DNA of 64,000 bases from Brachypodium distachyon. Taxonomy: Eukaryota; Streptophyta; Magnoliopsida; Poales; Poaceae. The notes beneath the pieces are model-generated. The model saw only the letters and a list, made by a program, of their open reading frames with translations. It did not search any database and was not told the origin of the DNA. The stretch covers positions 72,457,855-72,521,854 of the forward strand of contig NC_016131.3 of the NCBI RefSeq assembly GCF_000005505.3, written 5' to 3'. Both the position numbers and the translations under genes were made by a program. Shown one piece after another: positions 1,840 through 55,035 of the stretch. The number at the start of each line of letters is the position of its first letter. Position 1 is the first letter of the stretch.

Positions 1840-1883
1840 GCAAATTTGATCTTTCTTTTTTTGAGGGGAGCAAATTTGATCTT
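1840..1883. repeat. Micro-insertion scar: 16-bp oligo-T stub between 14-bp direct repeats
   Basis: GCAAATTTGATCTT occurs at 1840-1853 and again at 1870-1883. The 16 bp between them read TCTTTTTTTGAGGGGA. On the minus strand this is TCCCCTC followed by an A run, nearly the same as the insert at 2207-2222. Direct repeats around an A-tailed stub are what target-primed reverse transcription leaves. Tandem slippage is less likely because the insert is unrelated to the repeat. Confidence 0.6.
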
Positions 1884-2194
1884 CTTTGTTCTTTAGAAAA
1901 AAACTGTAGAAATTTCATCGAGAAGGAGACGGAACCTGGAATGAATTTGGGCTGATGGGCTAAAACTGTTGGTGTTGCCTTCTTCTTGCTTCCCAATGGC
2001 TTCGGACGACCCAGCCCAGTTGCAAACATACCGAGGCCGACTGCCTGATGGATCTGGAGCCCAGAACTCCAGCTTTACAGGGAAACTAACAGAACAAAGA
2101 ACAAAGCATGGACCGGGCCGAATGTATTGTAAAGGCTCATGACAAGCAAAAGTACTTTGGGAATTTCTGAGCTGCAGAAGGCCAAAAAACTAAT

Positions 2195-2234
2195 ATTCCT
2201 TCCGTCTTCCCCTCAAAAAAAAATTCCTTCCGTC
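2195..2234. repeat. Micro-insertion scar: 16-bp poly-A stub between 12-bp direct repeats
   Basis: ATTCCTTCCGTC is present at 2195-2206 and 2223-2234. Between them is TTCCCCTCAAAAAAAA. The insert has the same 3' terminal sequence as the one at 1854-1869 but in the other orientation, which suggests one source retroposon family used twice within 400 bp. Confidence 0.6.
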
Positions 2235-4448: not shown

Positions 4449-4506
4449 AACGTGGTGCTGCATGCTCCTCGCAAAACATTAAAAATAAATAAACGTGGTG
4501 CTGCAT
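4449..4506. repeat. Micro-insertion scar: 28-bp A-rich stub between 15-bp direct repeats
   Basis: AACGTGGTGCTGCAT is found at 4449-4463 and 4492-4506. The 28 bp between start GCTCCTCGC and end in the A-rich run AAAACATTAAAAATAAATA. The layout (non-repetitive head, A-rich tail, direct repeats on both sides) fits a severely 5'-truncated retroposon insertion. Confidence 0.55.
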
Positions 4507-9640: not shown

Positions 9641-9753
9641 CGTCACAAAGTGTCGCTATTCCAGCAATGAATACTGACGAGGGCCGGGAGGAAGAGGGTG
9701 GGGAGGTTAAGAAGAGAGATGCGGGAGTGATGTCCGGAAACCCCTGAGACCCG

Positions 9754-12616
9754 TTGGGGCGCTCCAATGGGCGATTCTGGGCCATCTCGCCGGAAAGTGA
9801 CTGTGAGAGTGATGGGGAGTCGTCGGAAAGTGACTCATCATCGATTGCTTCTGGATCTACGTCGTGGGAACATTGTCTCACGCCGGAATCAGCCAGATCC
9901 ATCGCTTTGAAGGAAAAGAGTTCTGATCTTTCTAGGCGGGAAGCGAAGAGGAGGAGGAAGCGGTTCCAGATGCAGACGCGGATGCAGGTGAGGTCTGAGA
10001 TTGATCTCAATTCTCTTATTTGCAGTAAATCAACGTCTGGATCCGGAGCTTCGCCAGCGCGTGCGTCTGTAAAGCCGCGGGAGGCGGTCCTGTCACCTTC
10101 TTCTTTCTTGTTGGAGAACTTCAATGCGGAGGAGTGGGTTCTTGTAAGGCGGCGGCGGCGGCGTGCATCCATCTCGGCGGCATCTTCCACGTCGAAGGTA
10201 AATTTCTCTCGTCGTTGCAACGATCCCCGTCAGTCGATGATGAGTTTGAATCTCAAATCGTACGGTCAAGTGGGCCCCGCAACTTCTGCGTTGCATGCGA
10301 GCCCAGTTACGATTCTGCAGGGCCATACGGGCCCGGGATCCGTAGCCCAATCCAGGTCGAATCGGATTGATTCGGCTGGCCGATCCCTGCGTTGCCTGTT
10401 AGGTTACGGGTGGCGTACGGATCAATCTCGTGCTCCGATAATTCCGTCTCTTGTTGCTTCCGGAACCATGGCGAACCTTGGTGGAGGTAGGGGAGGCGGC
10501 TTTGATCCTGGTGTTGTTGGTGATGGCCACGGCTATCCTGCTCAGGCGCATGGATCTGGCGGTGGTGCGGGCCGCGGTGGCGCTCCTCCTCAGGCGCATG
10601 GATATGGCGGTGGTGCTCCTGCTATGGCGTTTGGCCGAGGTCAGGGACAGGGTTCTGGTGCTGCGCCTGATCGGGGTTCTGGTTATGGCAGTGGCGGCGA
10701 GGCTCATGGCGGTGGCTATGGCGACTTCCACCCTGGTCGTTGGGCTGCTGGTCACTATGGTGGTGGTGGTCGGTATGGCGGCGGTGGATATCGTCGGCGG
10801 TATGAGTTCCGGGCGGGTCGTGGAGACTACCGTGGTGGTCGAGGGGCTTACAATGGTAATGCTCGTGGTTGTGGTGCTTACGCAGGTGGTGGTCGTGGCT
10901 CAGGTGGCCGAAACATCCCCTATTCTTATTCGGCAGACGAGTCGTCAGCACGTGGTGGTGCTGCTGGAGGCGCCCAAATGTCTGCTACGTCGGTTGCGAC
11001 GGTTGTTGCTAGTGCAGGAGGGCATCCGCATCTGGCGGAGCCTCAGGCGGCGCAGGAGATGCCCGTGGTTCAGGCTCAAGTGACGGCTGCTCTGCCAGCA
11101 GCTTCAGCAGGTCTGGATGCTGCTGATGTTCCCTCTGCCGTGGTGCAACAGCGAGCTCAAGAGAAAGCACCTGATTTTATCCCGTTGGAGCCGGTCATTG
11201 TGAATGTGGCTGGCAGTTCATCAGGGTCAAACAATGCGGCTGCTGTTGCTACTAAAACTGGGAAGAGAAAAGATAAGGTAAAATGTTTCCGATGTGGGTT
11301 CACAGGCCACATTTCTTTTGATTGTACTACGGTGTTGTGCGATTATTGTGAATCCGCGGAGCATGTGTCTTCTGTGTACCCTCTTTTACTTGCTCCAAAA
11401 CCACAAGTGGTGATGCATGGGGTATGCTGATGAGGAGCTTATGTTCTTTGACATGCCACTCACAGGTTCGTATCGGCCTAAGTATGAGAACACTCGTTTG
11501 GGCATGGTGACGGTGGAGGGGGGCAGTTTGTCTGTTTCTCAGCTTGTTTCACTGCTCCGGTTGTTTGTCCCGTCTGATAATTTTGAGTGGGAGGTGAGTT
11601 CGTCCGAGGATAATGTTTTCAAGGTGCAATTTCCTTCCAAGCTTGAGTTGCAGCAGATGATCAGATTTGGCAAATTTAATGTTCCTACGAGTGAATGTAG
11701 GATCACTTTTGATGAGTGGTCTCCTAAGCTGAATCCTAATTGGCTTGTTCAAGATGTGTGGGTGCGAATCGCTGGTATTCCCCCAGCTGTGAAGGGGTCC
11801 TTCTTAGCTCTCTGGGGACTGGGTTCACCGCTTGGTAAGACCAAGGAGGTTGACATGGCATTTACATGTCAGCACGGGGTATTGCGTATTTTCATTGGGT
11901 GGGTTGATTATACATGTATACCAGAGCGAAAGGATCTGCTCATCAAGGATGGCCTCTACAGGCTTACTTTCCAGGTGGAAGGACCACCAAGGGAGGAGGG
12001 GCTTGGTGATGAAGTTATGCATGATGCTAATGAGGGTGACGATGAGGGGGATAAGAAAAAGGATGCTTCAGAGAAGTCCGATCTGGATGATCGTGGTGGT
12101 AAGCGTGGCAAAAATGTGGATGGCGACACCTCTACTTCTTCGTCGGTTGGAGGGAGTGGTGGTGCAGCGGCACCCACTTCTTCTTCTCCGACCGATGGGT
12201 CCAATGTGGTGATGATTCGTATTGGCTCTGTGGAGACACCGGTTCCTATGTCCAGGGTCCCGCTTGTATCTGTTTCAGCTCCGATGTCTTATAGTAAGAT
12301 TGCAGCTCCTCGTCGTCTGTGGGCTGACCTTGTGGAGGAGGAATTGCCGTGTTTTGGGTCTGCTCCGCCTCGTGTTGACAGGTCGAGATACGAAGGTGGA
12401 CGGCCTATGGGCAGCGTGGTGTCAAGGTCGATCGTCGCTGCGCCTTCTCATGTGGATTCTGTGGCCGGTGATATGGTTGCGCCTGCTAGGCATAGTGCTA
12501 CCATGAAGCAGCTTTGCTCTGTGGTTGCTTCCGATGTGCGATCCGGGCACGAGCAGGGGGCGCTGCTCCCTACTAGTGAGGTGGAGCCCCAAGAAGGGCA
12601 GCGTGATGTGGAGTAG
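9754..12616 (+). pseudogene. LINE ORF1 (Gly-rich, zinc knuckle, DUF4283), frameshifted
   Basis: Two overlapping frames, 9754-11430 and 11417-12616, are parts of one ORF1. The first has an acidic/Ser-rich N terminus, a Gly-rich RGG-like tract (about 10480-10920) and a knuckle CFRCGFTGHISFDC at about 11284-11325. A second Cys pair (CDYC) follows. The second frame holds a DUF4283-type domain around 11540-11980 and an acidic C-terminal tail. The break is at about 11420: one extra G in CATGGGG puts TGA in frame, while the alternative frame runs on without interruption. A shared ORF1 explains why the knuckle and the DUF4283 are separated by only some 30 codons. ORF1 products bind the element RNA. 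Confidence 0.8.
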
Positions 12617-12710
12617 GTGGCTTCACCGCCGTCTGACCTTTCTCCGTCCCCATGGCAGGTGGCTGGGGGGTCACGAAATCGCTCGTTGCCGTCGTCGTTG
12701 CAGACCGCTT

Positions 12711-12830
12711 CTTCGACCCGTGTGCCAGGAGGGCGTGCGGGGGCGAAGAGCTCGTCGGCGCGGACCTCTTCTTCGACCCGTGTGCCAGGAAGGGGTGTGG
12801 GGGCGGAGAGCTCGTCGGCGCGGACCTCTA
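12711..12830 (+). repeat. 60-bp direct repeat, two copies, at the LINE deletion junction
   Basis: The segment beginning CTTCGACCCGTGTGCCAGGA is repeated with a 60-bp period, with a few substitutions between copies. It lies exactly between the end of ORF1 and the point where RT sequence resumes at about 12850. It may be the filler of the internal deletion. Confidence 0.75.
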
Positions 12831-12849
12831 ATATGCCGATGATACTATT

Positions 12850-14275
12850 ATTTTCATGGAGCACGACTTAGAGAAAGCCGTTAATATGAAACTAATTCTC
12901 TGTATTTTTGAACAACTTTCGGGACTGAAGATTAATTTTCATAAAAGTGAGCTCTTTTGTTTTGGTCAAGCGAAAGATGAAGAACATCAGTATAAGCGTC
13001 TCTTTGGATGCGAGTCTGGGTCTTTGCCTTTTAAATACTTGGGTATCCCTATTCATTATAGAAAACTTCTTAACAAAGAATGGAAGGCTGTTGAGGACCG
13101 CTTTGAAAAAAAATTGGGATGTTGGCAAGCCAAGTTACTCTCATATGGAGATCGCTTTGTGCTTATTAACTCTGTTCTCACAAGTATGCCAATGTTTATG
13201 TTGTCCTTCCTTGAAATACCTAAAGGGGTACGGAAGCGTCTTGATTTTTATAGATCCAGATTTTTTTGGCAAAGTGATGAGCATAAACGAAAATATCGTT
13301 TAACAAAGTGGAATATTATTTGTCATCCTAAATAACAAGGGGGGTTGGGGATTGAGCTTTTGGATACTAAAAATGTGTGTTTACTCAGCAAATGGCTGTT
13401 TAAGCTTCTTAATGAGCAGGGTATGTGGCAAGAGTTGCTACATAATAAATATCTTCATTCTAAAGCTCTTTCTCAAGTTCAGGCTATGGCCACAGACTCC
13501 CCATTCTGGAAAGGACTTATGTGAGTTAAGACGGCCTTTTTTAATCGAGGTTCTTTTATTGTTGGGAATGGAATGAGCACTCGGTTTTGGGAAGATACTT
13601 GGCTAGGTGATACACCTCTTGCCCATCAATATCCATCATTATATAATATTGTGCAACGAAAAAGTGTTTTGGTTGCGACTGTTCTGTCATCTGTTCCTCT
13701 GAATATTGGCTTTAGACGTACACTGACAGGGAATAAATGGACATCTTGGTTACATTTAGTCCACCGTTTAATAATGGTTCGCTTTTCTGCTGATTCAGAT
13801 TCTTTTTCCTGGAAACTTAATTCAACTGGAGTATTCACGGTTAAGTCTATGTACAGAGAGTTGATGGATGGGCATACTGTTTTTCCTCAAAATTATTTAT
13901 GGAAGATTAAAATACCTTTGAAAATCAAGATTTTTATGTGGTTTCTTTATAGAAAAGTGCCGCTGACAAAAGACAATCTTACTAAGCGTAATTGGATGTG
14001 TGTAAACAATGTTGTTTTTGCGGATTAGAAGAGACTATCCATCACTTGTTTATAACATGTCCATATGCTCGTCTTGTGTGGCGAATTGTTCATATATCTT
14101 TTAATTTGTCACTCCCAACCAATGTCACAGATATGTTTGGGAATTGGTTGAACGGTGTTGATAAAAAACTAAAGCTCAAATTCGGGTGGGAGTTTCTGTC
14201 TTTTGTTGGGCTATTTGGAACTGCCGAAATGATATTGTTTTTAACAAGACTAGAGTGGTTATTTTTTTTCAGGTA
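12850..14275 (+). pseudogene. LINE ORF2 remnant: RT C-terminal part and zf-RVT
   Basis: The frame 12856-13335 begins inside a reverse transcriptase, after the catalytic region. It carries the LINE motifs LSGLKINFHKSE and KYLGIPI and the segment SRFFWQSDEHKRKYRLTKW. After a stop at 13333-13335 and a second stop near 13522, homology goes on with GLGIELLDTKN and WEDTWLGDTPL. The zf-RVT domain (CFCGLEETIHHLFITCPYARLVW) spans about 14005-14090 and is reached by a frame change near 14000. The YADD-type catalytic box and the endonuclease are absent. It is not functional. Confidence 0.85.
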
Positions 14276-14572
14276 ATCTACAGAGCCACTCACTGGATCC
14301 GTTTGTGGTCTTATCTACTCCCTGTGGACCAACGGGAGCTTTTGGATACTGGGTGCAACCGTCTGGAGATGGTTACTCGGGATATCTTCAGCCGGGGTGG
14401 ATGGCGGTCCACTGGTAGAATTCTAACTACATGATGTATAGGCATTATTTGTATCTTTTATTTCGCTGGCTGATTTTTGTGTCAACCTTGTGTGATGCAT
14501 AAACTGTATTTTTAGTTGTGTGTATCGATTGATGCAGAAGCCGGGTCTTTTCCCCCTTTTCGAAAAAAAAAA

Positions 14573-16845: not shown

Positions 16846-18990
16846 TTAGTGCTCTTCTCGATCGATGACTTGGAGCTTGACGCCATGCTTGAAGTTGTTC
16901 ACGATGGAGAACTCGAGCTGCAGGGGAAACTCCATGCCGGGGGAGTGCCTGAAGACGTAGCGGCGGTACAGGTGGATAACCACGAGCTTGAGCTGCTGCA
17001 TGGCGAACTTCTGCCCGGGGCAACCCCGAGGGCCGATGCCGAAGGGGAGGAACGCGTAGGGGTGCCTTCGCTTGCATTCCTCGTCCTCCGGGTCGAACCG
17101 CTCGGGACGGAACGTGTACGGGTCGGGGAAATGCTTCGGGTCTTTCGATAGCTGCCCCGTCGCTAGCCACACCCACGTTCCCTGCGTGCGTGCAGGCACC
17201 ATTTTTGACTCGGTAAACTCATAAAAATGAAAATTGATGTGGCCGTACATATTCCATTTTAGCCTTGACCACATAAGGCAGCAGATTGGCACGAACCTTT
17301 GGCAGGAGATAGCCTCCGATCTCGACGTCCTCGGTCGTTTCCCTCGAAACCAGCGGGGACGAAGAATAGAACCTCATCGTCTCCTTCAAAACCTATTGGG
17401 GCAAAAGTTGTACATGGATGTTAACACAGGTTATGATCGATACGTTTAATCTTTTTTTTTAGGGAATCGATACGTTTAATCTGAAGATCGTGCAAACGAC
17501 CGAGACGAACCTGCTCCAAGTAGGTGAACTTGGTGTTGAGTTCCTCGGCGTCAGGCACGAGGTCCTTGGGCCCAAACGCGTCGATCTCACTTAGCATCTT
17601 CTCCTCCACCTCCGGGTGCATGGCGACCCGGTACGCGAGTCCCGAGAGCGTGAAGGACATGGACCCGGACCCGGCGAGCAAGTGCTCGTAGGTGAGCGCG
17701 GAGACGTAGTCGGCCGTGAAGAGCTCCCTCATGGCGTGGCTGCTCTCCCGGGCCTTGAGCAGCACGGACAGGAAGTTCTTCTTCTCCCCCTCGCTCTGGG
17801 CCTCCATGGCGGCCCGCTCCGCCACGATGGCGTCCACGAGCCCGCTAAGGGCCCGGTTGGTCTCGTCCATCAGGCGGTCCGCCGAGCCCGGCACCCGCAG
17901 CAGCAGCTGCCGGGCCGGCTCCTGCAGCAGCGGCGCCACGGTTCCCAGCACCATGGAGAGCGACCCATTGAGGTCCGCCTTGAGCGACGTCAGCGCGTAC
18001 AGGTGCTTCTCGATGAAGTCGTCCGTGGCTGTTTTTTCGTTGTTGATGGTGCTGTCGACATTGTTGGCGTCGTCGGGTTTGGTGAGCCCGAAGTCGACGC
18101 CGAACGCGGCTTGCCCGATGGTGTCGGAGAAGAGCTTGACGGCGAGGTCGGAGAAGGCGACCTCTTGGCCGGGGTGGAGGAGACGGGCGGCGCGGCGGAT
18201 GTAGGGATGGACGGCCGGGATGAGGCTTGCAAGGTGAGATGGCTGGTAGATGGCGATGATCACGTTCCGCATCGACTGCCACCTCGAGCCCCTGCAATTA
18301 ATTTGGTTTGCATGCGTTTAAAACTAGCTCTAGCTAGCTCTAGCAGCTTAATTATGTCCAAGACGCGATCTCCATTGTAAGTTGGACGTACTTGGTGAAG
18401 AGGAGACTTTTGAAGTGGATGGGCGAGCTACGGATGGTGCTGGGCACGCTCCTGTCGACGACGCTCTTGAACTTCTTGATGCCGGCCTCCCTGCACAGCT
18501 CTGCGTCCGCGATCACCACCACCGGCTGTCGACCCAGGTAAAACCTGGACAGAACACACCGACCGCCAGCGTATTAAGTGCAGATCGAAAGCCTTAAACT
18601 ACAACTGATACAGGTTTGATATATCTAAGTCGTTTAATTTTTAGTTAGGACAAGTTGATCTGTGAGATGAAAAATCAAGTATATACGTAGGATATAGCCA
18701 CCCAATTGAAATTGATCGGCCGGTGTGTGGAGTTACTAATTAACAACTGACCTGTAGATGGGCCCGTATCTCCTTGCGAGGACGCCAAAGACCTCGGGGC
18801 CATGCTTGGTGAAGAGCGGCAGGTGGCCGATGAGCCCGTAGGCGAGAGGCCCGGGCACCCTGCGCAGGCGCCACGACGGCGCGTAGAAATACACGGCGAA
18901 TGCGCCGGCCGCCAGTGCCGCCACGGTGAACAGAATCGCTGCCAATGGCGACTCCATCTGACGGCTCCAGAGTACTCCCGCTCCGTCCAT
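16846..18990 (-). CDS. Cytochrome P450 of the CYP711A (MAX1) family
   Basis: CYP711A enzymes oxidise carlactone in strigolactone synthesis and sit in the ER membrane. Five exons, 18990-18752, 18544-18392, 18291-17511, 17392-17297 and 17181-16846, join in frame to 534 residues, near the 522 of Arabidopsis MAX1 and with the same exon number. The N terminus has a hydrophobic anchor ([20 protein letters not shown]) and a VPGP hinge. The K-helix is KETMR, PERF is present as FRPERFDPE, and the haem-binding loop is [10 protein letters not shown] with the Cys ligand. Long stretches match MAX1 ([38 protein letters not shown]). The I-helix reads AGSGS where AGxxT is usual. A second in-frame ATG at 18957 could also start translation. 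The subtype within CYP711A cannot be fixed by eye. Confidence 0.93.
17436..17482. repeat. Micro-insertion scar in a CYP711A intron: oligo-T stub between 17-bp direct repeats
   Basis: ATCGATACGTTTAATCT occurs at 17436-17452 and 17466-17482. The 13 bp between are TTTTTTTTAGGGA (minus strand TCCCTAAAAAAAA). It lies in the intron between exons 3 and 4 and leaves the splice sites intact. Confidence 0.6.
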
Positions 18991-20152
18991 CGTACGTCTG
19001 TCTTGCCGAGCTTAGCGATCGATGGGGAAGAGTCACCACTTATATACACATGTTTTGCATGGGTTGTCGTGTCGACGGAGACCAAGCTGTACGTATACGG
19101 GGTAGGTAGGAGTAGTACGTACGTACGTACAAGAAAGAAAAATAGAATGGGTGTGGGACCCAATACCTGTAGCTGCTGCTCACACGTGACTGGAATATGG
19201 GTAGTTCAAAAGTATGGTTATTGTGTTTTTTTTTGCGGTGAAAAGTGTGGTTATTGTTGATGAGACGATGGATGTAAATGTAATCTAAGACCGCAGGAGA
19301 GTATATATGATTGACCGGTCCTGGATGACTCCATGGCGTTGAGCCGTTGAATATGACTAGTGCACGTTATTATCGTGTTGTACGTATGGTTTTGCACGTT
19401 GAGAAAACTGGCCAATTTCGTGAGATCCAAATCCGATCCACACGGTAAAGAGAAAAAGAAAAGATCGATAGTTCCACTCCTGATTAATTTACTGTCCAAA
19501 CAACCACGAGGGGCTGCATGCATGACCGAATCAAAGTAAATTACCCACCACGTGGGTCGATTGATCATCATCGGACGTCTTTTGCACTGGATCAGACAAA
19601 ATCAAGGAACGTTCCTTGTTATTCTACATGCATGCGACCCGTACGTCCTCGATCGCATTCTGACTGGCGACTCCACCAAACCATTTCTACGTTGCACGTA
19701 TACACCACGATATATTCAAACGCACAGCTGGCTAAAATCAAAGAACATCGGCCAGTAGTTACTTCTTCTTTGGGGAAGTGCAACGAAGAATTAAGATCGA
19801 CCATTTGCAAGTTGCGTGCGTCCTGTACGACTCTAGCTATCAAGGTCCCATTGGATACACATACACTGTCTCGCGGAAGTCTCCTTCCGTGCGAATTGAA
19901 ATGGCAGTGTTGGGGGCTGCACTGCACGCGTCAGAGCTTCACGCAACCCGGGCCACACGAGGCCGATATTCCTGACGTGCGTAGCCTCCCTATTTCTTTC
20001 TACGTGCACACGGAGGCTAGACAATTTTTCTCAAAATATTTGCATATCTGGATCCACAATTAGCATAATAAATTATTGTATAATTAACCATGTATATTTT
20101 TTTTCTAGGAAAAAGACTTCAGTTTTGTCATCCTACCAGGCGCCACCGTTTT
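18991..20152. other. Upstream region of CYP711A
   Basis: No gene supported. The 5' leader of the P450 gene probably occupies the first 100 bp; TATATA elements occur near 19035-19040. A run of TACGTACGTACGTAC lies at 19115-19130. Confidence 0.45.
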
Positions 20153-22912: not shown

Positions 22913-23756
22913 ATCTGAAAAGGGACTCGCTTGGGCTCAGTCGACTGAGAACGAGTAGTTCTCAGTCGATGGTAGTACTAGCTAGCAATTGATTGATTTT
23001 TTATAGCTATTTCTACCCGATTTTACTCACCCCGCTGGCTGCTTTTTTTTTTTTTTTAGTTTGTGTGTTCTCCTGACTTTGTAGGCTTGCTGGGACATAG
23101 CCAATACTATAAAATTCTCATGCAACTAAAATAATCATAAAACCATTGTGCAATTTAAAAACTGCAATTTAAATTTCTTGCAAAAGAGAAAATTTATAGC
23201 AGGAAAAATTACAGACAATTCTAAAATTTGCACGTGAAATTTTATGCGATATTCTAATTGCACGTGAAATTTTCTGCACGATTCTAAAAATTGCACGTGA
23301 AGTTTTATAAGCGATTCTAATTGCACTTGAAATTTTGTGCACGATTCTAAAAATTGCACGTGAAATTTTATACGGATTCTAATTTCACGTGAAATTTTGT
23401 GCACGAGTTTAAAAATTGCATGTGAAATTTTGGGTGCAATTCTAAAATTGCACGTGAAATTTTGTGCGCTATTCTAATAAATTGAAGAAAGGAAAAACCG
23501 AAGAATTAAAATCTTACATAAATCTGCCAAGATGAAGATTTGAACCTTTCATCTCTGTCTGGAAAACAAAAACACATTATCAGTGCAACAACATGACTTT
23601 GTTGTCTATAGAGGGACGCGGCCTTATTTATTCAAAAAAACTCTGCGCTGTCTTCCTGCACCACGAATCTTTGATGCCTGATCCAACGTCTCACAAGCAT
23701 CGACTGAGAAAAGCTAATTGTCAGGCGACTGCTCCCTAGCCAATTCGATCTGAAAA
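22913..23756. mobile_element. 826-bp Mutator-like element with 9-bp target duplication and paralogous empty site
   Basis: The insertion is 22922-23747. ATCTGAAAA is repeated exactly at 22913-22921 and 23748-23756. The other neprosin copy has an uninterrupted TGGTCAATCTGAAAAATTAT at about 31420, which is the empty site. The inverted ends are imperfect: GGGCTCAGTCGACTGAGAA near the left end and, on the minus strand, GGGAGCAGTCGCCTGACAA near the right end. Inside is a minisatellite rich in CACGTG. No protein is encoded. Confidence 0.85.
23226..23475. repeat. Minisatellite of about 30 bp units with CACGTG cores
   Basis: About eight units of the form AATTGCACGTGAAATTTT followed by GTGCACGATTCTAAAA or a shorter variant. 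Longer and shorter units tend to alternate. Six units keep the palindromic G-box core CACGTG; one has CACTTG and one CATGTG. The array is part of the transposon at 22922-23747. Confidence 0.85.
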
Positions 23757-24774: not shown

Positions 24775-25415
24775 AACACTTCACTATATCACTTGTTTAC
24801 AACCAGGTAATATAATAGTCACTCGTTTACCAGGTTAACTCATTTATCAGTTTAATATTCTTTGTTTATTAGATTATAGTCACCCGTTTACCAGATTAAC
24901 GATCCTTGTTTATCAGGTATAGTCACCCGTTTATCACGTTAATATTGCTTGTTTTTCAAGTTATAATCAATCGTTTATCAGGATAATATCGCGTGTTTAC
25001 CATGTTATAATCACTCATTTACCACGTTAATATTGCTTATTTACCAGGTTATAGTCACTCGTTTACTAGGATAGTATCGCGTGTTTACCACGCTATAGTC
25101 ACTCCTTTACCAGGTTAGTATATCGCTTGTTTACCAGGTTATAATCACACGTTTACCAGGATAGTATCGCATGTTTACCACGTTATAGTCACTCCTTTAC
25201 CATGTTATTATCGCTTGTTTAACAGGTTATAGTCACTCGTTTACCAGGATAGTATCGCGTGTTTACCACGTTATAGTCACTCCTTTACCAGGTTAATATC
25301 GCTTGTTTTACCAGGTTATAGTCACTCGTTTATCAGGTTAATATCGCTTGTTTACCAGGTTATAGTCACTGATTTACCAGGTTAATATAGCTTGTTTACC
25401 AACTTGATTACACAT
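24775..25415. repeat. Minisatellite with 42-bp higher-order period
   Basis: About 14 units made of two half-units that begin GTTTACCAGGTTATAGTCAC and GTTTACCAGGTTAATATCGC. The half-units alternate regularly, so the array has a basic period of about 21 bp and a higher-order period of about 42 bp. Substitutions (ACCACG, TATCAG) increase toward the left end, which looks older. Confidence 0.9.
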
Positions 25416-40618: not shown

Positions 40619-43069
40619 CTCTTTCAGCAGTTTGCTCTACCTGTCAGAGGTACCGAAACGAAAGGAAGAAGTGAATCAAACAAGAAGGTTCAAAGCCAAA
40701 TAAAGCTTCTCACCCACCTTCTCTTCTTCGTCTGCCTCTGCAGTCTGCACCTGCCCAGCCGGACAACGGGACAGTCGTAGCAGCAGCCAGCACGCGCCGG
40801 ATATGTTTATAAAGGAAGCCTTGGGCAGAAAAAGAAGGGAGGAGGAGAAGTCGCGTGGCATTTCGGTGGCGCTTGAGCTTTATGTGAAGCAGTAATATAA
40901 AGAAAGTGCGTGCACAAAGACAGTGAACATGTAGCAGCATTTGCCTCTCAAGGCTTCGCTATGGCACTGGCAACCAAACTGAGGACGAGGAGGCTGGAGT
41001 TCTCGGTTCAGAGAGCAGTTGTTTTCGCAGCTTAATTAAAATCTTGGTAGTAGTAGCCGCTAGCTTCTATAGCAAGGAATGAATGTCATCTCTACTGGAT
41101 TGTCGGGCGGGCAGATCCATCCATCCATCCGCGAGCTTTGATCTCGTCAAGATTAAATCTGCATCGGCAGCTCCTCGATCCCTTTCAGCCTTTCACTCAC
41201 GGGGGTTCCGTAATACTAACACGCTAGTAATCAACAATCACCACTCACCAATTAAAGCGTTATTACAAAGTCGTGGATCGGACAGCACGCGCTGGCTAGA
41301 AGCTTCTTCTTCCACGGCACTTCCACCACCCTTCTTCCTGCGTGATCTGCAGTGCAGCAACGACGGCTTCCTAGTTTGTAACTGCATCTCGATCAGGGAC
41401 TGCCAAAGCGAGATGGTCGATCGTTTGTTCAGGAAGAAGCTAGTGCCAAAGCTTTCTCTCACTTGGAACTTTTGGCCAGCAGCTTCCATGCCACACGTGG
41501 TGGTAGCGGGGTGAGAGCGATGCCTTGCCCGGCGCCATCACGTTTCAGTTCAACCGTCTGCGTACGTATCTGACGACGCCTCACCATCGTTTTTTTGACT
41601 GACCGGCTGCCCATATTCGAACCCTGGTTGGTGCCTTGCCGAGGCGCGGTAAACAAGTAGCCCGGGCCGCGAGTTGCCACTTGCAGCAGGGGTGGCTTCA
41701 CTTTTGATGTCGAGTTTTTCTCTGATGTGCCTTGAACTTGCGCTCGTTGACGACGTCGACTGGAAAGTGGGAACGCACGGCTATCTTTAGCATTCACGGC
41801 GTGTTACTCGTGCCAACAGTTTACTATCTCCACGTCTCAGTTTGTAAACCGAAGGCTGAACATATTCTCTGCTCTTTTGTGAAAAGAAAAATACAAAAGA
41901 ATGTAAACGTTGGTTCCAAATAACAGCAGTATAGAATAGACAAAAGAGGACTGCTTCGCGTACGACAGTTTTCTTACGATTCACATACGACACTAAGTAG
42001 TAGCCATCGATATCAGCAGCTCGGAAGTGCTGTAGCCATTGATCGGAACGTCGTACACAAATCGTATCTAAAGGATCGTACATGAAGTAATTCCGTAGAG
42101 AAAACCGAACGGGACAACGAACGAGAAACCAGATCACCGTGATACGGAAGGGAGCCTTTATATCTTCACGAAACGAATAAAAGCAATATCATGTTGTTGG
42201 TTAAGGACAGGATTCTTTTTTTTTTACCAAGGTTAAGGACAGGATTCTGTCATGAAATAATTAGAACATTAGTTGAGAGGAGCCGGTCCGGAGGGATTAT
42301 ACGACCGTTTCGCTTCGTATAATCTGGAACGTCTATTTTCTGATCCAACGATACGAGATCATCAGAGTTTCCAGACCGGTGTTCGAAGCCGCCGCCTGGG
42401 TAGGTTTTCGCCGCGTACGCTCTTGACTCTCGACTCTCAACTCTCACAGGCCTGTTTGCTTTACAACCAAAATCAGCCCTACCAAAAAATTGGCTTGCCC
42501 ATGGTATTTGGATGCTGTTTGGACGAGGGCCAAAAAGTTGGCTGGTCGAGCCAATCTTTGGCGCGCCCGCGCTACTCCCGCAGAAACCATTGGCGAAACG
42601 AGGACGGCGAAAACCTTCTCCAACGAATTAGCAACGCGCCAACGCCTCTCCAACCTCTAATCCTTGGTGGGCCCTGGCCTTTTTTTTATTTTCTTCTTTT
42701 GTGCTCTCTCTGCTACTTTCTCTCTTGTTGTCTATTCTCTTTTCTAACCTATAATTTATTCTAGATCTTGTTTGCTAGGGAGTTTGCTACCTCACCAGTG
42801 AAATAGATCAAGTTAAATGTTTGAAGTACTACTAACTTGATTGCAAACCAAATGCAAATCGAAAAAGCTTGTCAAAAAATTTGGCTGCAAATTACCAAAA
42901 TATTGATCGTGCTCTGAATTTGGTCATACCAATATTTGCCAACAATTTGGTAGGTCTGACCGGGGCTCAAGCCAAACACACCCACAAACTCCGAACCTGA
43001 AGCCGCCGTCAAAGCGCACTGCGAGCGACCAAACCCCAGGCACCCGGAGACCCAAATCTAGCGCCGCAG
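40619..43069. other. Intergenic DNA between the CHY/RING and ankyrin genes
   Basis: The two genes are divergent, so this 2.4 kb contains both promoters. No other gene is supported. A micro-insertion scar lies at 42199-42248. Confidence 0.5.
42199..42248. repeat. Micro-insertion scar: 14-bp oligo-T stub between 18-bp direct repeats
   Basis: GGTTAAGGACAGGATTCT is found at 42199-42216 and 42231-42248. The insert is TTTTTTTTTACCAA (minus strand TTGGTAAAAAAAAA). The repeat copies are identical, so the event appears young. Confidence 0.6.
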
Positions 43070-51149: not shown

Positions 51150-52440
51150 CGTGCTCACAGGGCCCAACCGTACACTGTGTCAGAGTAGAAGTTGTAGCAC
51201 CTGGAAGCTCCTTTTATCATCTGCAGCTTCCCTGTGCTAGAATCAAGTCTTGCTTCAAGGACCGTCATGACGGCGACGTCGCACAAAGGAATTGACAAAT
51301 TATCCCAATCATGCCTAGTGTCATAGAACCTTGTAACACAGAATTTGCCACAGCCGAGATAGGTGAGGTAAGAATGGGCCAAATGCCACTGCGAGCCCTT
51401 GTATCCATCAACATCATCCCATACATTCCGGTGCACCGGGGGCTCCAAGGCCCCAGAATCAACGATCAAGTCAGCCGAGCAAAGGTTGATCGATCGTTTA
51501 GAGAATCCAAAACATTGGCCATACTCAGGTATATACTGCACTTGGCCCTCAAAAGGCAGCGTCCAGTCACCTACCTTGCGCCATGTGGAAGTTGTAGTAT
51601 CAAAGATGTGAGTGCCATTGCCCAATGTTGATATCCATATGTTCTCGTCGTCCCCAGCTGCATAACAACGTATGGTGCTTCCAAGCCTGAACGGCATATC
51701 AAAGAACGACGGCGAGGGCAGCAGATCCCACAACCAATCTTCCAGCTTGTCGTCGAAACGAAGGGCCTCAAAACATGGCGTGCCGTAGTTGTCGGGGAAC
51801 ATGTTGGTGAGGTAAAGCTTGCCTCGTACCGCTGCCCAGGCAGGCTTGAGTAACTTAGGATGTCGCAGGTCAGGTCCCGCGGACATAGCCGAGGTTGAGG
51901 TGTCATACAAGATGGTGTGCCGATTCATGTTGACGCTGACAATTTTGCTGCCGAGGAGAAAAAACTCCGTATGGTTGTGATGGTGCTTGTTGGCAGACTC
52001 AAAGAAGGCAGCTGCCCTTGGTAGTGGAGTGACTTGCATACTGGTGTTGCCATCACCAATACCGGCAAAGAGGGGTTTCATATCAATGTTGCGGAGGCTG
52101 TAGCCACCAGGACCACACTCTTGAGTTCGTGGACAATCAGATGGACAAATCTTCGAATCATGGAGCACATCTTCGGATCTTTTTTCTGAAATTCTCCCCC
52201 AACCTGATCTGCTTAACAAAATTCAGTCCTGCCGAATTCGTTCCCCAACCTGATCTGCTTAGTTTTTTCCGGACAGAGAAAGAAGAGAAATCAGTATTGT
52301 GGCAGATTAACATTCTGAAATCCACAACGAACCGAATGATATAATGGATCGTCTCGAAACACAGCAACATTAAGGCATAATCGTTATCAACCTCAAATTT
52401 GGAGGTGAGAGGAGGAGATCTATCTAGAAAAAAGGGCAAT
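51150..52440 (-). repeat. Left arm of a large inverted duplication
   Basis: This arm and 53760-55035 are inverted copies of each other. The match covers the DUF1668 coding region and upstream flank (for example GATAACGATTATGCCTTGAT at 53807 has its inverted partner near 52370). The arms are separated by about 1.3 kb. The genes point away from each other. Confidence 0.85.
51155..52170 (-). pseudogene. DUF1668 family gene, left (frameshifted) copy
   Basis: DUF1668 is a grass-expanded family of unknown function with a kelch-like blade pattern. From the start equivalent to that of the right copy (52170) the frame is broken by two extra bases at about 52114-52117 (AAGAGTGTGGTCC against AAGAGTGGTCC in the right copy). 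After that the frame is open to the stop at 51155. An internal ATG at 52081 would give 308 residues starting MKPLFAGIGDGNTS. Retained motifs include TEFFLLGSKIVSVN, FEALRFDDKLEDWLWDLLPS, WISTLGNGTHIFD, WTLPFEGQVQYIPEYGQCFG and YLGCGKFCVTRF. Either it is a recent pseudogene or it uses the internal start. Confidence 0.75.
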
Positions 52441-52756
52441 AAACTCACTAGGCATGGGCGGAGGACCCAGTAGGGCAAGGTAGGGCGCTCGCCCTACCTT
52501 GATTTTTGCCTCAGTTACGAATTGGGGAAGCTTATGAAACGGGGATCTAAAGGGCGGAATCCGTTCGTGGTGTGATGGGAGGAGAAACGGTCGGGAGCGA
52601 GAGAATCGAAGGGGAGATCAACCTGCGGTGGAGGCGCTCGAGCGAGGAGGAAGACGAAGGGGGCTCGGGCGCTCGGCAGCGGGATGAGTGGCGGCGCTCG
52701 CGCGAGGAGGAAGAAGATCCACGGAGCGAGGGGGCTGTGGGGCTCGGCAAGGAGAT

Positions 52757-52797
52757 GGGGTATAGCTTTTTTTTCGAGAGGAGGAGAGGGGGTATAG
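52757..52797. repeat. Micro-insertion scar: 23-bp stub between 9-bp direct repeats
   Basis: GGGGTATAG is present at 52757-52765 and 52789-52797. The 23 bp between read, on the minus strand, CTCTCCTCCTCTCG followed by an A run and G. The TCGAAAAAAAA junction is the same as at the 3' end of the LINE in this window. Confidence 0.5.
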
Positions 52798-53367: not shown

Positions 53368-53410
53368 GGAAGGACGGGGGTAATTTTTTTTAGGAAAGGA
53401 CGGGGTAATT
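53368..53410. repeat. Micro-insertion scar: 7-bp T-rich stub between imperfect 18-bp repeats
   Basis: GGAAGGACGGGGGTAATT (53368-53385) and GGAAAGGACGGGGTAATT (53393-53410) flank TTTTTTA. The repeats differ by two positions. Slippage cannot be excluded. Confidence 0.4.
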
Positions 53411-53759: not shown

Positions 53760-55035
53760 TTTTTTTTTCTAGATAGATCTCCTCCTCACCGCCAAATTTA
53801 AGGTTGATAACGATTATGCCTTGATGTTGCTGTGTTTTGAGACGATCCTTCGTCTCATTCGGTTTGTTGTGGATTTCAGAATGTTAATCTGCCAAAATAC
53901 TGATTTCTCTTCTTTCTCTGTCTGGAAAAAAACTAAGCAGATCAGGTAGGGCACGAATTCGGCAGGACTGAATTTTGTTAAGCAGAACAGTTTGGCAGAT
54001 AATTCAGAAAAAAGATCCGAAGATGTGCTCCATGATTCGAAGATTTGTCCATCTGATTGTCCACGAACTCAAGAGTGGTCCTGGTGGCTACAGCCTCCGC
54101 AACATTGATATGAAACCCCTCTTTGCGGGTATTGGTGATGGCAACACCAGTATGCAAGTAACTCCACTGCCACGGGCAGCTGCCCTCTTTGAGTCTGCCA
54201 GCAAGAACCACACGGAGTTTTTTCTCCTGGGCAGCAAAATTGTCAGTGTCAACGAGAACCGGCACACGATCCTGTTCGACACCTTGACCTCTGGCGCATT
54301 AGCGGGGCCACACCTGCGGCATGGTAAGTTACTCCAACCTGCCTGGGCAGCTATTGGAGGCAAGCTTTACCTTACTAGCATGTTCCCAGAGAACCACGGC
54401 ACGCCGTGTTTTGAGGCCCTGCGTTACGACAACGAGCTTGAAGATTGGTTGTGGGATCTGCTCCCCTCGCCGTCATTGTTTGATATGCCATTTGGGGATG
54501 GAAGCATCATACATTGTTTCGCATCTGGGCATGACAAGAACATTTGGATATCAACATTGGGCAATGGCACTCACATCTTTGATACTACTACAACTACCAC
54601 ATGGCACAAGGTAGGTGGCTGGGCATTGCCGTTCGAGGGTCGAGTGCAGTATGTACCCGAGTACCGCCAATGTTTTGGATTCTCAGAAAGATCAAGCAAG
54701 CTGTGCTCCGCAGACCTGATCTTTGGCTCTAGGATCTTAGAGCCCCCGGCATACCGCAATGTATGGGATGATGTTGATGGATACATGGGTACGCAGTGGC
54801 ATTTGGCTCGCTCTTACCTCACCTATCTTGGCTGCGGCAAGTTCTGCATTACGAGGTTCTATGACACTAGGAATGATTGGGAGGATGATTACATTCCTGT
54901 ATGCAACGTCGCCGTCATGACAGCTGTGGAAGTGAGATGTGATTCTAACACCGGGCACCTCGAGATGATCAAAGGGGCTTCCAGGTGCTACAAGTTCAGC
55001 CCCGACACACTGTACGGCTGGGTCCTGTGAGCACT
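53760..55035 (+). repeat. Right arm of the inverted DUF1668 duplication
   Basis: Inverted counterpart of 51150-52440. It carries the DUF1668 gene with an intact frame. Confidence 0.85.
54023..55030 (+). CDS. DUF1668 family protein, right (intact) copy
   Basis: 335 residues from the ATG at 54023. The first residues MCSMIRRFVHLIVHE and the following GGYSLRNIDM match the usual start of DUF1668 proteins, which supports this start over an upstream non-ATG codon. Other conserved parts are TEFFLLGSKIVSVN, HGTPCFEALRYDNELEDWLW, NIWISTLGNGTHIFD, WALPFEGRVQYVPEYRQCFG and YLGCGKFCITRFYDTRNDW. The repeated Trp/Gly blades suggest a propeller-like fold. Function is unknown. No signal peptide or membrane segment is evident. 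A possible leader intron lies upstream, with an acceptor AAGCAG at about 53940. Confidence 0.85.
   Translation: MCSMIRRFVHLIVHELKSGPGGYSLRNIDMKPLFAGIGDGNTSMQVTPLPRAAALFESASKNHTEFFLLGSKIVSVNENRHTILFDTLTSGALAGPHLRHGKLLQPAWAAIGGKLYLTSMFPENHGTPCFEALRYDNELEDWLWDLLPSPSLFDMPFGDGSIIHCFASGHDKNIWISTLGNGTHIFDTTTTTTWHKVGGWALPFEGRVQYVPEYRQCFGFSERSSKLCSADLIFGSRILEPPAYRNVWDDVDGYMGTQWHLARSYLTYLGCGKFCITRFYDTRNDWEDDYIPVCNVAVMTAVEVRCDSNTGHLEMIKGASRCYKFSPDTLYGWVL

Follow-up and report, generated by a model that had tools for sequence, protein, structure and literature searches.

In LINE copies, truncation usually falls at scattered points. Patch-mediated repair of double-strand breaks, which Vaughn and Bennetzen reportedly put forward for rice, can yield direct repeats of the size described here around short filler. 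In human full-length L1 copies the target duplications peak at 14–16 bp (PMC2912911), and a plant L1 lineage with a 3′ stem-loop is described in the Ohshima review (PMC3747384). We describe here a class of much shorter sequences from a 64-kb window, i.e., the whole stretch C1:72457855-72521854 of a genome of 271,293,937 bases in 11 contigs. Each is a scar in which short direct repeats enclose a stub, made of an A-run (a T-run on the other strand) and a head of a few other bases. The class is real and resembles target-primed reverse transcription in its duplication length, its polarity, its T^R preference and its recurring heads, which mostly end at a recurring point. Stubs predicted, blind, from other LINE tails mostly failed to appear.

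Micro-insertions in the Window

The initial annotation described 14-bp and 12-bp direct repeats around two 16-nt inserts, and these read as claimed at 1840–1883 and 2195–2234:

1840–1853, no strand: left target duplication of scar 1 (14 bp), repeat GCAAATTTGATCTT
1854–1869, minus strand: micro-insert 1, TCTTTTTTTGAGGGGA, in sense TCCCCTC(A)n on the minus strand
1870–1883, no strand: right target duplication of scar 1, second copy of GCAAATTTGATCTT
2195–2206, no strand: left target duplication of scar 2 (12 bp), repeat ATTCCTTCCGTC
2207–2222, plus strand: micro-insert 2, TTCCCCTCAAAAAAAA, i.e., TTCCCCTC(A)8
2223–2234, no strand: right target duplication of scar 2, second copy of ATTCCTTCCGTC

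The proposed near reverse complementarity of the two stubs is borne out by a perfect 14-nt inverted match (1856–1869 with 2208–2221). A CKS-domain exon lies downstream of two of the window's scars.

Further scars had been named at 4.4, 17.4, 42.2, 52.8 and 53.4 kb. All five positions hold one, and the scar at 19.2 kb is an addition:

4464–4491, plus strand: micro-insert GCTCCTCGC and an A-rich interrupted tail; 15-bp repeats at 4449–4463 and 4492–4506
17453–17465, minus strand: micro-insert T8AGGGA; 17-bp repeats at 17436–17452 and 17466–17482
19225–19240, minus strand: micro-insert GT9GCGGTG; 17-bp repeats with one mismatch at 19208–19224 and 19241–19257
42217–42230, minus strand: micro-insert T9ACCAA; 18-bp repeats at 42199–42216 and 42231–42248
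52766–52781, minus strand: micro-insert CT8CGAGAGG; 16-bp repeats with one mismatch at 52750–52765 and 52782–52797
53384–53395, minus strand: micro-insert T8AGGA; repeats AAGGACGGGG(G)TAAT with a 1-nt gap

The insert at 4464–4491 includes TCCTCGC, the sense form of the GCGAGGA head discussed below. The scar at 17453–17465 sits where a cytochrome P450 open frame ends, presumably in an intron. A strict rule applied to both strands of the window recovered six repeat-flanked stubs from 126 T-runs of at least 6 T. The scar at 4.4 kb fails this rule because its A-tail is interrupted, and that at 53.4 kb because of the 1-nt gap in its repeats. The exact mirror geometry gave no stubs in the window, as against the six in the forward geometry. 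Low-complexity repeats were excluded from the counts of repeat-flanked stubs, here and below. Shuffling the flanks (n = 1000) left a mean of 0.067 stubs and a maximum of 2. None appeared in 40 Markov-1 windows, but these contain fewer T-runs (on average 59, compared with 126 in the window).

The window also carries longer features. A degenerate LINE at 9748–14572 has a frame with a zinc knuckle (PF00098) and a frame with a below-cut-off DUF4283 match; downstream, sequence that by eye is RT/zf-RVT-like leads to a 3′ end of CCCCCTTTTCG(A)n. Minisatellite arrays occupy 23218–23484 and 24838–25401, with periods of 33/63/125 and 22/44. Similar open frames at 51155–52222 (minus strand) and 53972–55030 (plus strand) form, by eye, an inverted pair, and the latter matches DUF1668 (PF07893).

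Recurrence of Heads across the Genome

The head of the first two scars recurs genome-wide. T7GAGGGGA occurs 145 times in the genome and the reversed pattern 12 times. The one permutation of the same composition that we counted, T7GGGGAGA, is not enriched (12 vs. 7), which opposes the idea that the heads are mere purine-rich filler. After duplicate sites had been dropped, 94 distinct T7GAGGGGA sites of the 145 counted were read. Under a relaxed rule, a target duplication begins 0–5 nt after GAGGGG at 61 of the 94 (shuffles: mean 0.15, maximum 2); under a strict rule, 56 of the 94 have one (shuffles: 0.09). Within the searched offsets of 0–5, the duplication begins at offset 0–2 in 57/61. When the head may be as long as 14 nt, the end point falls between GAGGG and GAGGGGAA in 47 of 55 GAGGGG stubs, and the other 8 run further. 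The T-run in these 55 is 6 to 15 long. Since the search pattern itself set the minimum head (GAGGGGA), these counts establish that the insert is seldom longer, not that it never stops earlier. The same 7-nt head is found with unrelated flanking repeats at different sites.

At the remaining 33 of the 94 sites a duplication was not recognised. Longer elements account for about four of them, and the 33 include the L015 insert, the LINE 3′ ends at L010, L077 and L048 (all discussed below), units that come first in a stacked pair, and a repeat family that is present three times (L019, L053 and L084), with T7 plus GAGGGGA and both flanks common to all three copies. Given the shared flanks, the stub there was probably copied within a larger element.

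Two further heads behave similarly. T7AGAGGA was counted 414 times against 64 for its control, and T7GCGNGG 530 times against 67, both over the whole genome. Duplications (repeat of at least 9 bp, head of 3–16 nt) were present at 8/20 AGAGGA and 12/20 GCGNGG sites read, and the shuffles gave 0.0. These samples are 20 of the first places listed among the 414 and 20 among the 530, all on contig C1; in the GCGNGG sample two listed places inside loci already sampled were skipped. By one of two rules, 15 of the 20 GCGNGG sites are stubs, as read in 161-base stretches in which inserts longer than about 60 nt are undetectable. The base that follows GCGNGG, which was not preselected, is A in 14/20; a common end GGA is therefore likely, and on the sense strand this reads as a 5′-terminal TCC.

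An open scan of 28 sequences (278,112 bases) did not depend on any one head. L016, a long simple-repeat array, was dropped, as were low-complexity repeats. The scan returned 72 T-runs with flanking repeats. The largest cell (repeat, 0–2 nt, T-run, 5–9 nt head, repeat) holds 36 cases and its mirror cell none, and ten shuffles combined placed 3 cases in the cell that holds the 36 real ones. The two sides were not treated quite alike in this binning. When the same sequences were reversed exactly and a tight rule was applied, 38 cases had the correct polarity and 6 were mirror cases; by both counts the A-tail is on the duplication-adjacent 3′ side. Three of the mirror cases come from stacked units (L011, L013, L022) and three from other repeats (L025 twice, L026). 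A looser reversal control, in which the T-run could lie as far as 14 nt from the repeat, gave 71 vs. 63 at a score of at least 11. That control is weak because true stubs, once reversed, still score, and explicit geometry with exact reversal was used instead.

Twelve of the 36 cases are sites that had been used to pick the loci. The other 24, six of them within the window, have heads that are GAGGGGA(A) in three cases and all different in the remaining 21. By rough extrapolation, 24 stubs per 278 kb, from a sample that is mostly stub-centred, would correspond to the order of 10^4 genome-wide. The open scan supports the earlier suggestion that such insertions are frequent. The end TTCCCCTC(A)n proposed for the first two scars does recur across the genome, but most other scars have different heads, and the scars are thus not one family.

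Target Duplications and Insertion Sites

A set of 143 stubs was reduced to 137 by leaving out L016, with duplicates and low-complexity repeats dropped. The repeats of these 137 measure 10–22 bp, which is the range searched, with a mode at 15 bp. This agrees with the duplications of about 7–20 bp expected of LINE or SINE insertion by target-primed reverse transcription. In 109 stubs the repeats reach 12 bp or more. T stands at the nick in 93 of the 109, where random boundaries give 44%, and the T's are followed by A or G in 93 as well, where random boundaries give 68%. This T^R preference is looser than the human TT/AAAA site that is named in PMC2912911. Microhomology at the 5′ junction was considered and rejected, as 14/47 clean GAGGGG stubs share 1–2 bases with the target, the level expected by chance (P 0.33).

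Some targets hold more than one unit. In L022 (4950–5065) three T-run units with different heads are found on one duplicated target, and at least three repeat copies are present at 5/55 GAGGGG stubs, in four loci (L021, L042, L063, L088). By eye, stacked micro-insertions with the same or different heads on one target are seen in L022, L088, L169, L188, L013, L011 and L018. A first insertion seems to attract the next, and its T-run may serve as a good new primer site.

Candidate Source Elements

The initial annotation expected LINE or SINE ends with TTCCCCTC(A)n, and such ends are present. L010 is a LINE copy (Pfam RVT_3, RNase H-bearing) with this 3′ end, L077 is a LINE copy 91% identical to L010 with the same end, and L048, a probable LINE judged by a sequence motif, also ends in this way. 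The extended tail of L010 and L077, T7GAGGGGAAAAGC, has these two as its only exact matches in the genome. L015, about 113 nt long, is an insert flanked by a 14-bp duplication; part of it looks tRNA-like by eye, and it too ends in TTCCCCTC(A)n. Its SINE family has 40 scored matches, and the six copies read end in TTCC or TTTCC, variable bases and A(n). In the SINEs L104–L108 the bases between TTTCC and the A-tail vary (TTC, CTT, CTC, AT, AT), much like the stub heads. The overlap of the scars with LINE and SINE tails is 7–8 nt only. In L085, TTTCCCCTC(A)n directly follows sequence that by eye resembles the 3′ portion of a receptor-kinase-like gene, and may mark a processed copy or a chimera.

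Twenty of 106 matches to further LINEs of the RNase H lineage were read at their 3′ ends, and in nine of the 20, T's and then CC stand no more than a few bases from the A-tail:

LINE ends with T's, CC and A(n): L189–L191, L193, L194, L202, L203, L205, L206

Two tails of this lineage were counted as stubs in the genome. T7GAAACGGG, from the GAAACGGG tail, was found 4 times vs. 2, and three or more of those four hits coincide with LINE matches. T7AAGGGA is in modest excess (128 vs. 69), the parent LINEs being counted in. On these two tails, a general rule by which stubs mirror the LINE tails of the RNase H lineage in proportion is not supported. We found no parent for the heads GCGAGGA, GCGGGGA and AGAGGA in the sampled LINE ends.

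LINEs with a zf-RVT domain were sampled at 55 of 150 scored matches, and 48 of the 55 regions have an A-run. Many of these copies finish with a hairpin that is followed by a linker, for instance TCTAG or TCTTG, and then A(n), and the separate copies L097, L102, L128, L129 and L141 have near-alike 3′ hairpins followed by TCTAG(A)n. These 3′ ends suggested a stop of the reverse transcriptase at the base of the 3′ hairpin. The stubs predicted from such tails are not clearly enriched in the genome (T7CTAGA[not A], 182 vs. 154, no clear excess; T7CAAGA[not A], 143 vs. 177, no excess), and a hairpin-base stop was therefore rejected.

Origin of the Scars

Each scar is probably a tail-only retroposon insertion made by target-primed reverse transcription, for which a plant L1-type LINE fits best. 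An L1-type endonuclease would nick one strand at a T^R site, and the T-ended primer would pair with the poly(A) tail of an RNA from a LINE or SINE. Reverse transcription would cover the A-tail and 5–9 nt upstream of it and then halt, and the short cDNA would be joined to the second strand, cut some 15 nt off. We infer a plant L1 LINE from the RNase H-bearing lineage as the machinery. The stop may fall at the template's entry into a U-tract that lies immediately 5′ of CC, with a weak rU:dA hybrid; the U-tract is preferred as the stop signal because many heads end in GGA or GGAA there. The recurrence of scars across the genome suggests that LINE reverse transcription often halts soon after its start. 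Retroposition aborted after about 16 nt, as first proposed for the two scars at 1840–2234, is supported by the duplications, the side of the A-tail, the recurring end point and the genome-wide recurrence.

A bolder version, possible and in our view somewhat doubtful, holds that these scars stem from a distinct mode of retroposition whose normal product is the tail alone. The reverse transcriptase would then have a built-in stop 5–9 nt past the poly(A), and the micro-insertions it left, of the order of ten thousand in this genome, would far outnumber longer elements with the same tails. Alternatively, the templates could have been separate, very short polyadenylated RNAs or degradation fragments that were copied to their physical 5′ end, making the insert the whole template. 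The end points fit this, with most GAGGGG inserts no longer than GGGGAA (47/55 by head length; 57/61 by offset), as do the 15/20 GCGNGG sites that are stubs (again in 161-base stretches blind to inserts above about 60 nt) and the mostly failed stub predictions from LINE tails. Set against it are the LINE and SINE copies with the exact TTCCCCTC(A)n tail and the 9/20 related LINE ends with T's, CC and A(n), and we think short templates unlikely. Telomere-like addition was considered as a further origin.

Two explanations dispense with reverse transcription. Patch-mediated double-strand-break repair with filler DNA can account for repeats of this size around short inserts. Its filler should show no fixed A/T polarity, whereas the scars do (36 vs. 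0; 38 vs. 6), nor should it share a head at many unlinked sites, and the T^R preference would not be expected from it; we consider it very improbable. Local tandem duplication or replication slippage could have made the repeats, with the T-rich spacer incidental or expanded later, and it gains something from the loci with three or more repeat copies (the 5/55 GAGGGG stubs at four loci; L022 and L169 by eye). The one-sided polarity of the spacer in the same two counts, the same 7-nt head between unrelated repeats and the unenriched head of the same composition (12 vs. 7) leave slippage with hardly any plausibility.

Aborted target-primed reverse transcription, if it is the right reading, means that plant genomes hold a large readable record of failed LINE insertions, below the size of repeat annotation. 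Two comparative studies, PMC4423477 and PMC2912911, apply a lower limit of 50 bp. The rate and position at which target-primed reverse transcription aborts would become measurable. The duplications would mark endonuclease cuts, near genes as well (the CKS-domain exon, the P450 open frame), and the micro-insertions could double as small presence/absence markers.

Comparison with Known Systems

We regard the scars as a variant of known retroposition whose product is the tail alone, and do not claim that it is unpublished. Like patch-mediated tandem duplications in rice, the scars have short direct repeats around short inserts; unlike those, they have a fixed A/T polarity and a recurring head, which are not expected there. 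The plant stem-loop L1 LINEs (PMC3747384) likewise finish 3′ in an A-tail, which in many of the 48 ends is joined to the hairpin by a short linker, and differ in that their two counted tail-only stubs (CTAGA and CAAGA) are not clearly enriched. The tRNA-derived SINE (L015, L104–L108) has the same order of TTTCC or TTCC, a few variable bases and A(n), with a duplication in L015. Its tRNA-like body, judged by eye, is absent from the scars, which are the last 7–8 nt alone. With the retroposition of L1-clade LINEs the scars share duplications with a mode of 15 bp, a 3′ poly(A), a nick after T and insertion in either orientation. Unlike L1-clade LINEs, their inserts measure only about 11–30 nt, and the 5′ end of the GAGGGG class recurs at one point (TCC or TTCC).
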